From Balneolales bacterium (lineage in GTDB: Bacteria; Bacteroidota; Rhodothermia; Balneolales; HLUCCA01): DNA of 53,187 nucleotides. The stretch is taken from NCBI GenBank assembly GCA_024711145.1, contig JANJTJ010000125.1, positions 1-53,187 of the forward strand, given 5' to 3'. The notes below the pieces were generated by a model, which did not search any database, had not been told where the DNA came from, and saw only the letters and a program-made list of their open reading frames with translations. The translations under genes and the position numbers were made by a program. Shown in pieces: positions 3,757-42,714 of this stretch (within the stretch, counting starts at the first letter, position 1; the number at the start of each line of letters is the position of its first letter).

Positions 3757-3872
3757 GTCGAACGGGCAACGGCTGTCGGCTGACCCCGGGCCCCAGCACG
3801 GGGTTTACGGCGGAGCCGGGTGCTAACTTACCCAACCACCCACCACCAACCACCAACCACCCACCACCCACC

Positions 3873-4316
3873 ATGATCACCGACATCGAAACCTTGCCTG
3901 CGCAACTGCGGGCCGCCATCGAAGCCCTGCCCCCCGGCGCCCTCGACCAGCCGTATCGTCCGGGCGGATGGACCCGCCGCCAGGTGGTGCATCATCTGGC
4001 CGATTCCCACATGAACGCCTACATGCGGTTCAAACTGGCCCTCACCGAAGACAATCCGGTCATCAAGCCATACGACCAGAATGCCTGGGCGGCCACCGCC
4101 GACGCCGGCGCCGGCAGCGACATCGAAGCCTCCCTGAAACTCCTCGAAGGGCTGCACGAGCGCTGGGTACGGCTGCTCCGGTCCATGACCGAAGCCGATT
4201 TCCAACGCACCTTCACCCACCCCGAGCACGGCCGCACCTTCACCCTGGCCTACACCCTGGAGCAATACGCCAACCACGGCAAAAAGCACCTGGGCCATAT
4301 TGCGGGTAACGGGTAA
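3873..4316 (+). CDS. YfiT/DinB-family metal-dependent hydrolase or thiol transferase
   Basis: PYRPGGWTRRQVVHHLADSHMNAYMRFKLAL...YANHGKKHLGHI, DinB/YfiT His motifs. Confidence 0.85.
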   Translation: MITDIETLPAQLRAAIEALPPGALDQPYRPGGWTRRQVVHHLADSHMNAYMRFKLALTEDNPVIKPYDQNAWAATADAGAGSDIEASLKLLEGLHERWVRLLRSMTEADFQRTFTHPEHGRTFTLAYTLEQYANHGKKHLGHIAGNG

Positions 4317-4414
4317 CGGGTAACGGGATACGGGATACGGGATACGGATACCCACAGACCCATAGTCCCAAAGTCCCATAGTCCCATAGACCCATAGACC
4401 CATAGACCCAAAGA
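4304..4414. repeat. Composite microsatellite: six heptamers (gggtaac x3, gggatac x3; 4304-4345) then eight octamers (cccaYagW type; 4351-4414)
   Basis: Direct reading of tandem units. Confidence 0.95.
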
Positions 4415-4415
4415 C

Positions 4416-5564
4416 GTGGATTTCCAACTCATCAGCTCCCACCTCCACCTCAGCCCCGCCGAGTTCGCGCTCCGGTTTCCGGGCAAGCGTGCCGAGGCCG
4501 AACTGCTGGATTGCTACCGGCGCGCGCCGGCCAAGTACCCCACCTGGCACGGCGAGGGGTTGCTGTACACCCGGTTGGCCCTGGAGCAGAGCTCGGGAGA
4601 GGCGGCCGCCCGGTGGAAAGCCGATTATCTGGGAAACGGGAAGCGGTTGATCGATCTGACCGGTGGCTTGGGCATCGACACCTTCGCCTTTTCGCAGCGG
4701 TTCGCCGAAGTATGGCATGTGGAACGGGACCCAGCCGTTACCGACATGGCCCGACACAACCACCGGGTGATGGGCTGCGAAGGCATCCGGTACCTGACCG
4801 GTAGCGCCGAAGACGTGCTGGACCGCCTGCCCGATGCCGATGCCGTCTATCTGGACCCTTCGCGTAGGCCGGGCGGGGCGCGCACGCTCCGGCTGAGCGC
4901 GTACGAACCCGATCCCGTGGCGCTGGTGCCCCGCCTGCTCGACCGCTGGCCCGAGGTATTGCTGAAGGTATCGCCCATGACCGACCCCGCCGAGGCCGCC
5001 CGCTTGCTGCCCGGGCTGGACGACGTGGTGGCCGTGTCGGTGGCGGGCGAGGTAAAGGAGCTGCTGCTGCGCCTGCGGCGCGGTAGGGCGGGCGCCCCCG
5101 GGTACCGTGCCGTAGGCTTGCGCCCCGATGGCGCCCGCCTGTTCGAGCGGGTGGCGGCCGGGCCGCCACCCGCTCGGCAGGCTCCGCCGGCGGATGCGCC
5201 CATGGCGGTGCTGGTGTCGGGCACGGCGGCTTCAGACCGCTACATCCTGCTGCCCGATGCCGCTTTGCGGAAGTTGGGCCTGGGCGCCGACGAACTGCAT
5301 GCCGCCGGCGCCGAGGTGATGGATCCCACCGGCGGTGTGGGTCTGGCGGCCGCGGCGCCCGCCGGGTTCGCCGGCCGCGTGCTGCCCCTGCGCTACCGCC
5401 TGCCCTGGAAACCCAAGGAGGTGGCCAAGCGCCTGAAAACCGACGGCATCCGCGCCGTGCAGGTGCTCCCCAAGGGCGTACCCCTGGGCGAAGCCGAGGT
5501 ACTCAAGACCCTCGGCCTGCGCCACGGAGACGACGCCTGGCTGGTACCTACGCGCCTGCCCTAG
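4416..5564 (+). CDS. Class I SAM-dependent methyltransferase with THUMP-like domain
   Basis: GTG start at 4416; [19 protein letters not shown] (SAM motif I), [10 protein letters not shown]. Confidence 0.85.
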
Positions 5565-14920: not shown

Positions 14921-15412
14921 ATGGAACTTTCCGATCTCCTCATCCTGCTCTTCGTGTTGGCTCCGTTGCTGGAGCGCTTTCTGAACAAGCGCAAACAGCA
15001 GGCGCCCGGGAACCGTCCGGTGGAACCGGCGCCGGAACCCGCGTCCAAACCCGACCTGAACGTGGATTGGGACAAGGCCCTGAAGGAGTTGGAAGTGTTG
15101 CTGGGGGGCCAGCCCGAACCGGCGCAGGTACCCGCACCGGCGCCTCCACCCATGCCCCGCCTGGAGCAGAAACCGTTCGAGACGGTCCGCACCGAACACA
15201 AGAAACCGGAATTCCGCTCGCATCGGCACGAGTCGTCCTTCGCCTTCCACAAACCGGTGGACCATGCCCCGGTGGAACCCGAAGCCGAGGCGCACCCCGA
15301 GCCCATCCAGCTGAAAGTGGATGCCGCCGCCATACGGTCCACCGTGGTGCTCAACGAGATCCTGCTGCCGCCGGTATCCAAACGGCCCAAGGGGTTCCTG
15401 CACCGGCGATGA
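14921..15412 (+). CDS. Hypothetical protein with single TM and proline-rich region
   Basis: MELSDLLILLFVLAPLLERFLNKRK...; ATGA overlap with pdxB. Confidence 0.65.
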   Translation: MELSDLLILLFVLAPLLERFLNKRKQQAPGNRPVEPAPEPASKPDLNVDWDKALKELEVLLGGQPEPAQVPAPAPPPMPRLEQKPFETVRTEHKKPEFRSHRHESSFAFHKPVDHAPVEPEAEAHPEPIQLKVDAAAIRSTVVLNEILLPPVSKRPKGFLHRR

Positions 15413-16380
15413 CCCGGCTGCTGGCCGACGCGCACATCCCCCATGTGGAGGAGTATCTGCCTGAAGGCGTGGTACTCGAGCGGTTCGACCGGGCACCGGA
15501 TGAGGCCGCCCTGCTCCGCGCCGATGCCTTGCTGGTGCGTACGGTAACCCGCGTGGATGCGGCCTTGTTGGCCGCGGCGCCCCACGTGCGCGTGGTGGGT
15601 TCGGCCACGGCCGGTTACGACCACGTGGACCCGGACGCCTGCTCCGCGGCGGGCGTGCGGTTCGCGTATGCGCCGGGGTGCAACGCCGGCGCGGTCGGCG
15701 ATTATGTGGCGGCCGTGGCCGGGCCCGCCCGCCGCGGGCTGGCGTCGATCGCCGTGGTCGGCTGCGGGCACGCCGGAGGCGCCGCCGAGCGGCGCTTGCG
15801 CGCGCTCGGCTGGCGCACGGTGCCGTACGACCCGCCCCGGGGGCTACCGGCCACCTGGGATGAGGTGCTGGCCTGCGATGCCGTCACCTTCCACGTGCCC
15901 CTCACCCGGGGCGGGACGTACGGCACACACGGCCTCGTGGACGAGGCCGTGTTCCGGCGTGCCCGCTGGCAGATGCTCATCCAGGCCGCTCGCGGCGGCG
16001 TGGTGGACGAACCCGCCCTGAAGGCGTGGATCCGCCGCGGCGGCCGCGCCCACGTGGACGTGTGGGTGGGCGAACCCGACGCCGACCCCGAGCTGATCGC
16101 CCTGGCCCATACCGCCACCCCGCATATCGCCGGCTATTCGGTGCAGGCCAAACGCCGGGCCACGGAGATGGTGCTCCAGGCGATGGGACTTTGGGACGCT
16201 GGGACTATGGGACTATGGGACTTTGGGACTTTGGGACCTTGGGACAGTGGGTCTTCTACCCCAAACCCCGAACCCCAAACCTCCGACTATCTGAAGCAGA
16301 TGAGTAGTGCTTGGAAAGCAAACCCGGGGGCCGAGACCTTCCTGGAGATCCGCAATACCTGGCCCTTACGCTCCGAATAG
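15409..16380 (+). CDS. pdxB: 4-phosphoerythronate dehydrogenase (PdxB-like), C-terminal linker encoded by octamer repeats
   Basis: LLVRTVTRVDAALL; GSATAGYDHVD; HTATPHIAGYSVQAKRRAT. Confidence 0.85.
   Translation: MTRLLADAHIPHVEEYLPEGVVLERFDRAPDEAALLRADALLVRTVTRVDAALLAAAPHVRVVGSATAGYDHVDPDACSAAGVRFAYAPGCNAGAVGDYVAAVAGPARRGLASIAVVGCGHAGGAAERRLRALGWRTVPYDPPRGLPATWDEVLACDAVTFHVPLTRGGTYGTHGLVDEAVFRRARWQMLIQAARGGVVDEPALKAWIRRGGRAHVDVWVGEPDADPELIALAHTATPHIAGYSVQAKRRATEMVLQAMGLWDAGTMGLWDFGTLGPWDSGSSTPNPEPQTSDYLKQMSSAWKANPGAETFLEIRNTWPLRSE
16184..16281. repeat. Composite microsatellite: nine octamers (tgggactW; 16184-16255) plus short heptamer stretch (ccccaaa/ccccgaa; about 16257-16281)
   Basis: Direct reading; reverse complement has the same order as 4304-4414. 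Confidence 0.93.
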
Positions 16381-42635: not shown

Positions 42636-42714
42636 CGGTACGTCGGTACGTCGGTACGTCGGTAATTTAAGAGACCCAAAGTCCCATAGTCCCATAGTCC
42701 CATAGTCCCAACGT
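42636..42714. repeat. Divergent octamer arrays: cggtacgt x3-4 (42636-42667) and cccaWagt x5 (42675-42714) flanking an AT-rich box
   Basis: Direct reading. Confidence 0.93.

Follow-up and report, generated by a model that had tools for sequence, protein, structure and literature searches.

Two-part heptamer and octamer arrays in a Balneolales genome as probable gene-less relatives of a small intergenic element with a PF05635 gene

The stretch of DNA analyzed here as a whole (53,187 nt, referred to below as the window) comes from a draft genome of a Balneolales bacterium. Near its start, a two-part tandem array occupies positions 4304 to 4415, with six G-rich heptamers followed by eight octamers, and ends 1 nt 5' of a GTG start codon, as the preliminary description of this DNA had stated. 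The features of this region are as follows.

3832 to 3873, + strand: lone C-rich heptamer arm (ACCACCA/ACCACCC), immediately 5' of the ATG of the DinB-like gene
3873 to 4316, + strand: DinB_2-family gene (DinB-like), with its stop in the second heptamer of the array
4304 to 4350, + strand: left arm, (GGGTAAC)3(GGGATAC)3 followed by GGATA, G-rich on the + strand
4351 to 4415, + strand: right arm, eight CCCAHAGW octamers, C-rich on the + strand, abutting the GTG start
4416 to 5564, + strand: THUMP-like methyltransferase gene, with its GTG start immediately 3' of the array

Within the left arm, the three copies of GGGTAAC span positions 4304 to 4324, those of GGGATAC span 4325 to 4345, and GGATA fills 4346 to 4350; the octamers cover 4351 to 4414 and leave a single C at 4415 before the GTG at 4416. 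The number of octamers given earlier (eight) was right, but the consensus CCCAYAGW was not and has to be widened to CCCAHAGW, because two of the eight units are CCCAAAGN. The left arm overlaps the end of the DinB-like gene, taking in its last codons and its TAA stop (4314 to 4316), which falls inside the second GGGTAAC. On the other side, a TAG at 4395 to 4397 lies in the frame of the GTG, 18 nt upstream and with no start codon in between, so that a start of the methyltransferase farther upstream is impossible. The lack of a Shine-Dalgarno sequence before this GTG, to which attention had been drawn, is true but counts as weak evidence, since genomes of such bacteria are often without one. An Rfam search of the window gave no match. 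Near the contig end, at positions 269 to 466, there is also a minisatellite with 4.3 copies of a 46-bp unit (90% matches).

The claim that the same two-part architecture recurs at 16184 to 16281 and at 42636 to 42714 holds for the recurrence itself, but the third composite has an octamer left arm without any G-triplet.

15409 to 16380, + strand: PdxB-like gene containing the second composite
16184 to 16251, - strand: second composite, right arm, octamers
16258 to 16281, - strand: second composite, left arm, GGGGTTT/GGGGTTC heptamers
42636 to 42664, + strand: third composite, left arm, CGGTACGT octamers
42675 to 42714, + strand: third composite, right arm, CCCAWAGW octamers, directly adjoining the GTG at 42713 that starts an RlmF-like methyltransferase gene

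In its 3' part, the reading frame of the PdxB-like gene runs through the second composite (MGLWDAGTMGLWDFGTLGPWDSG...), which takes the place of a variable linker; the conserved C-terminal tail of the protein (FLEIRNTWPLRSE) picks up again past it. The third lies between divergent genes and has octamers in both arms. No gene of family PF05635 (see below) was present at any of the three composites.

The rest of the genome (a draft of 2.30 Mb in 138 contigs, 90% complete) contains many more of these arrays. A 20-mer of the octamer array had 73 matches at ca. 20 unlinked places, and its reversed control had none. In a sample of 446 kb, we counted 20 perfect arrays of period 7 and 14 of period 8, against 2 and 1, respectively, in order-2 Markov sequence. 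Among periods 5 to 12, the noncoding tandem arrays of this sample were of periods 7 and 8 alone (12 each), with coding and noncoding DNA separated by the gene calls of a simple codon-usage script. Lag autocorrelation outside the strong arrays left no residual period, so the arrays are discrete. The preliminary description had asked for a genome-wide look at octamers next to G-rich 7- or 8-mers, and an association with 7/8-mer arrays was found, with a fixed polarity: a second 7/8-mer array was located at most 75 nt 5' of the octamers, read in their C-rich orientation, at 13 of 17 gene-less octamer arrays. None of the 17 had one 3' of the octamers, and none was present in control windows placed at a distance of 300 nt. 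The left arm varied widely among loci (GGGTAAC, GGGGTTT, ATGTTGA, GGACAGT, TGACGGC, GGGTGGT, GTTTGTG, CGGTACGT, and others); the near constancy of the right arm reflects that the loci were picked by the octamer.

The array at 4304 to 4415 had been described as prone to form G-quadruplexes, and the pattern of four or more G-triplets is indeed satisfied at 4304 to 4341. As a common principle of the arrays it fails, because most left arms (ATGTTGA, GGACAGT, TGACGGC, CGGTACGT, and GTTTGTG among them) are without GGG. For the window RNA from 4300 to 4416 (fold z = -3.05), a long imperfect hairpin is predicted in which the repeats pair one unit at a time, G-runs of the heptamers with C-runs of the octamers; the other two composites were not unusually stable as RNA (z of -0.13 and +1.10). 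Regulation by quadruplexes or hairpins, with G-rich arms past stops and C-rich arms before starts acting on termination, mRNA stability, or translation, would fit the stability of the first transcript and the closeness of the arms to gene ends (mostly 0 to 12 nt). It would also fit their placement, which follows the position rule of the GGGNATC heptamers described for other bacteria: in intergenic DNA, on the + strand, arrays in the left half were G-rich in 8 cases versus 3 and those in the right half were C-rich in 10 versus 1. Nevertheless, given that many left-arm families have no G-triplets, that one copy sits in a coding frame, and that the neighboring genes are functionally unrelated, we consider a regulatory role of this kind quite improbable as the explanation of the arrays.

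A gene-bearing form of the same architecture is present in the genome. Seven genes belong to PF05635, the family of the 23S rRNA intervening-sequence protein (IVP), a four-helix bundle, and most of them are bounded by inverted arrays, with one unit per element. Five element types had matching inverted arms, listed here as left arm and right arm.

CGGTACTA and GTACCGTA
ACGACTG and CGTCAGT
GGCTTAC.. and GCCGTTA
GGGTTTG and CCAAACCC
GGGACTNT and CCCAAAGT

The PF05635 gene is the sole gene of these complete elements, in which no transposase of a known family was found. Gene-less arrays reuse the units that flank PF05635 genes (CCCAWAGW at ca. 17 places, ACGACTG at 2, GCCGTTA at 2, and GTACTACA at 1), so that ends shared with a gene-bearing relative, a trait of miniature inverted-repeat elements (MITEs), are present here through common unit families. 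One element is dispersed; with contig ends placed together, it reads (GGGACTNT)n, leader, gene, (CCCAAAGT)n. In the contig pairs C36/C136 and C102/C104, its two copies were 98.4% identical over a 188-nt 5' part and 95.6% identical over a 340-nt 3' part, and the identity ended at the octamer arrays, beyond which the outer flanks were unrelated. The arrays themselves differed in length between the copies (6 versus 14 units and 8 versus 12 units). By eye, a leader motif recurs upstream of PF05635 genes (GTCAGGTAG...CCTNTAT in this genome and TTTGTAAGG...CTTAC in relatives); it may serve as a promoter or fold as a structured RNA.

In the class, 74 of 120 genomes had PF05635 genes (up to 16 per genome), and in a sample of the phylum, 61 of 80 did. 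For 59 PF05635 loci across the phylum, we aligned each left flank with the reverse-complemented right flank of its own locus. The median score was 17, versus 9 for flanks of mismatched loci (Mann-Whitney p of ca. 1e-28, with orthologous sites among the 59, so that not all of them are independent), and 45 of the 59 exceeded the 95% level of mismatched pairs, 25 of them also the 99% level. Arrays beside PF05635 genes had period 7 in twelve cases, period 8 in eight, and periods 6 and 12 in one each (20 of 22 with period 7 or 8), versus no period-7 array and a single period-8 array beside 26 control genes. Arrays of period 7 or 8 were absent from three genomes without a PF05635 gene, numbered 0 to 3 per 100 kb in five other genomes with such genes, and reached 22 per 446 kb in the genome studied here. 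One genome (G003) with 11 PF05635 genes had no array in a 100-kb sample. These small samples are suggestive of an array density that tracks the presence of PF05635 only loosely.

Plain microsatellites, generated by polymerase slippage and surviving where they do least harm, with the PF05635 genes there by chance, would account for the strong noncoding bias of the arrays and for their variable copy number, and slippage was cited by Rehm et al. (2015) for similar heptamers, for which they offered no function (PMC4692102). What slippage leaves unexplained is the fixed two-part polarity (13/17 versus 0/17), the inverted complementarity of the arms at PF05635 genes, the presence of one unit at ca. 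20 unlinked sites, and the similarity of dispersed copies that stops at the arrays. This explanation is thus already disfavored, and we regard it as rather unlikely.

Beyond this genome, the octamer 20-mer had no match among 250 further genomes from the class, and a 28-mer matched 25 loci in GTDB genomes and 2 in viral contigs, scattered among phyla. At some of these loci (L062, L064, L072, L077, and L080), a G-rich array was seen by eye 5' of the octamers. None of the 27 had a PF05635 gene nearby, within the 2 to 14 kb available around them. Long arrays of the octamers CCCATAGT, CCCAAAGT, and CCCAAAGA (L058, L059, L065, and L076) occur in unrelated genera such as Thalassospira, Pseudacidovorax, and Alistipes, with no PF05635 gene beside them within the DNA examined.

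One orthologous site, between the genes of a PaaI-like thioesterase and a thiolase, was found in three states among relatives.

375 to 443 nt: complete element
80 to 91 nt: gene-less head-to-head heptamer pair
25 to 46 nt: short spacer

The state varied inside genera. In the gene-less pairs, which have the same architecture as the window composite, the arms were complementary beyond shuffled controls. Between two relatives of one genus (G007 and G001), the neighboring proteins were 93% and 97% identical, versus 59% for the IVP encoded at the site, and the arms were different, the pattern expected if a mobile element had entered the site independently or had replaced its occupant. Between G001 and a third relative (G002), the bundle protein at the site was 100% identical. 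No target-site duplication was identified; at this site, the spacers of different genomes have diverged too far for an insertion point to be placed. G007 also carries a second PF05635-like gene right after the thiolase gene (L156, 3105 to 3314), which is thereby flanked on both sides.

The order of events could also be the reverse, with older arrays acting as a landing target and PF05635 elements inserting between or beside them. Single arms and gene-less pairs are more numerous than complete elements, and some of the otherwise short spacers at the PaaI-thiolase site are faint heptamer runs, both of which would agree with such targets. Against them, dispersed copies bring the same arms together with leader and gene, and the pairs of arms are locus-specific complements; we therefore think it unlikely that the arrays came first.

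The dispersed, gene-less inverted pairs in intergenic DNA, accompanied by rarer gene-bearing copies, also resemble REPIN/RAYT systems and MITEs, and two Y1_Tnp genes are present in the genome, which would allow REPIN-like repeats to be mobilized by a Y1 transposase (RAYT). However, neither of the two Y1_Tnp loci has a 7/8-mer array, the units are tandem 7/8-mers and no palindromes, no Y1 transposase or known recombinase is attached to the elements, and they end in tandem arrays instead of single terminal inverted repeats. Mobilization of this type is extremely improbable here. Upstream of one Y1_Tnp gene (L276) lie several copies of the palindromic motif GGTGGGGCTTCAGCCCCACC, as in a separate REP/RAYT system.

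Given the polarity of the composites, the inverted arms at PF05635 genes, the dispersed copies, and the variable occupancy of one site, the window arrays are likely gene-less, non-autonomous relatives of a small, selfish, intergenic IVP element, a reading to which we assign a probability of about 0.62. The earlier suggestion of a defined mobile element, and not a chance microsatellite, is borne out by the polarity at 13 of 17 loci, by the dispersed copies ending at arrays, and by presence or absence at the orthologous site. The complete form would consist of a 7- or 8-mer array, a short leader, a PF05635 gene (IVP/S23p, Avd-related), and the same unit inverted. From the sequences, we infer how these elements might move. 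The IVP protein would bind the arms, as DNA or as RNA, and in transcripts the arms could pair as an imperfect hairpin, like 23S rRNA intervening sequences. New copies would be made by host replication or repair functions, because no match to a reverse transcriptase (RVT_1) was found in the 90%-complete genome, the element has no known recombinase, and the Y1 genes have no arrays. Slippage would lengthen and shorten the arms, and gene-less pairs of arms may spread or persist in trans. The gene-less composites of this genome are not simple internal deletions, because their arms are mixed: complete elements have one unit in both arms, while in the composites the left arm varies and the right one is usually CCCAWAGW.

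Among known systems, the intervening sequence (IVS) of the 23S rRNA gene, as in Coxiella, encodes IVP/S23p, has complementary borders, and has been called selfish (PMC4990558); IVP open reading frames are known also from 16S and 23S insertions of CPR bacteria (PMC11270868). The elements described here are likewise small (ca. 0.4 kb) and probably selfish, with a PF05635 protein and a reading frame bordered by complementary sequences. They differ in being multicopy, in having tandem 7/8-mer arrays as ends, and in their abundant gene-less forms, and we do not class them as IVS because copies sit between or in protein genes and not in an rRNA gene. PF05635 is related to Avd of diversity-generating retroelements (PMC10053308), from which this genome differs in that no reverse transcriptase was found in it.

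The GGGNATC heptamers known from Xanthomonas and Nostoc are noncoding and vary in copy number, and no function was assigned to them (PMC4692102). They share with the arrays studied here short, G-rich tandem units lying on the coding strand past stop codons and on the non-coding strand ahead of start codons. By contrast, the units here are GGGTAAC, GGGATAC, CCCAHAGW, and others instead of GGGNATC, and the arrays form head-to-head two-part pairs, many without G-triplets, that are tied to PF05635 genes. Xanthomonas campestris encodes a PF05635 protein (XCC0516; PDB 2gsc). The TAACTGA repeats of marine Beggiatoaceae, found also in Bacteroidetes and Cyanobacteria and discussed with regard to mobility (PMC4679880), are intergenic 7-mer direct repeats too, but of a single unit family with 2 to 6 copies, and that study recognized neither an element nor a partner gene. 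In an open-access library, we found no report that connects PF05635 genes to inverted 7/8-mer arrays, and with this scope the novelty of an intergenic IVP element with array ends is provisional.

PF05635 (IVP/S23p) genes are common and multicopy, and their function is without an explanation despite a solved structure; intergenic heptamer repeats have been reported, equally unexplained, from several phyla. The link between the two leads to a joint hypothesis, in which a selfish element has a protein gene, ends that match, and followers without the gene, and it makes the function of the PF05635 protein directly testable. We put forward tentatively, as a doubtful extension, that PF05635 genes and the inverted 7/8-mer arms around them make up a widespread and so far undescribed class of mobile elements that encode neither a transposase nor a reverse transcriptase, and that many unexplained intergenic heptamers and octamers in bacteria, those in Xanthomonas and Nostoc among them, would be its gene-less forms. 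Gene-less IVP elements could in this way explain a class of bacterial repeats so far without explanation.
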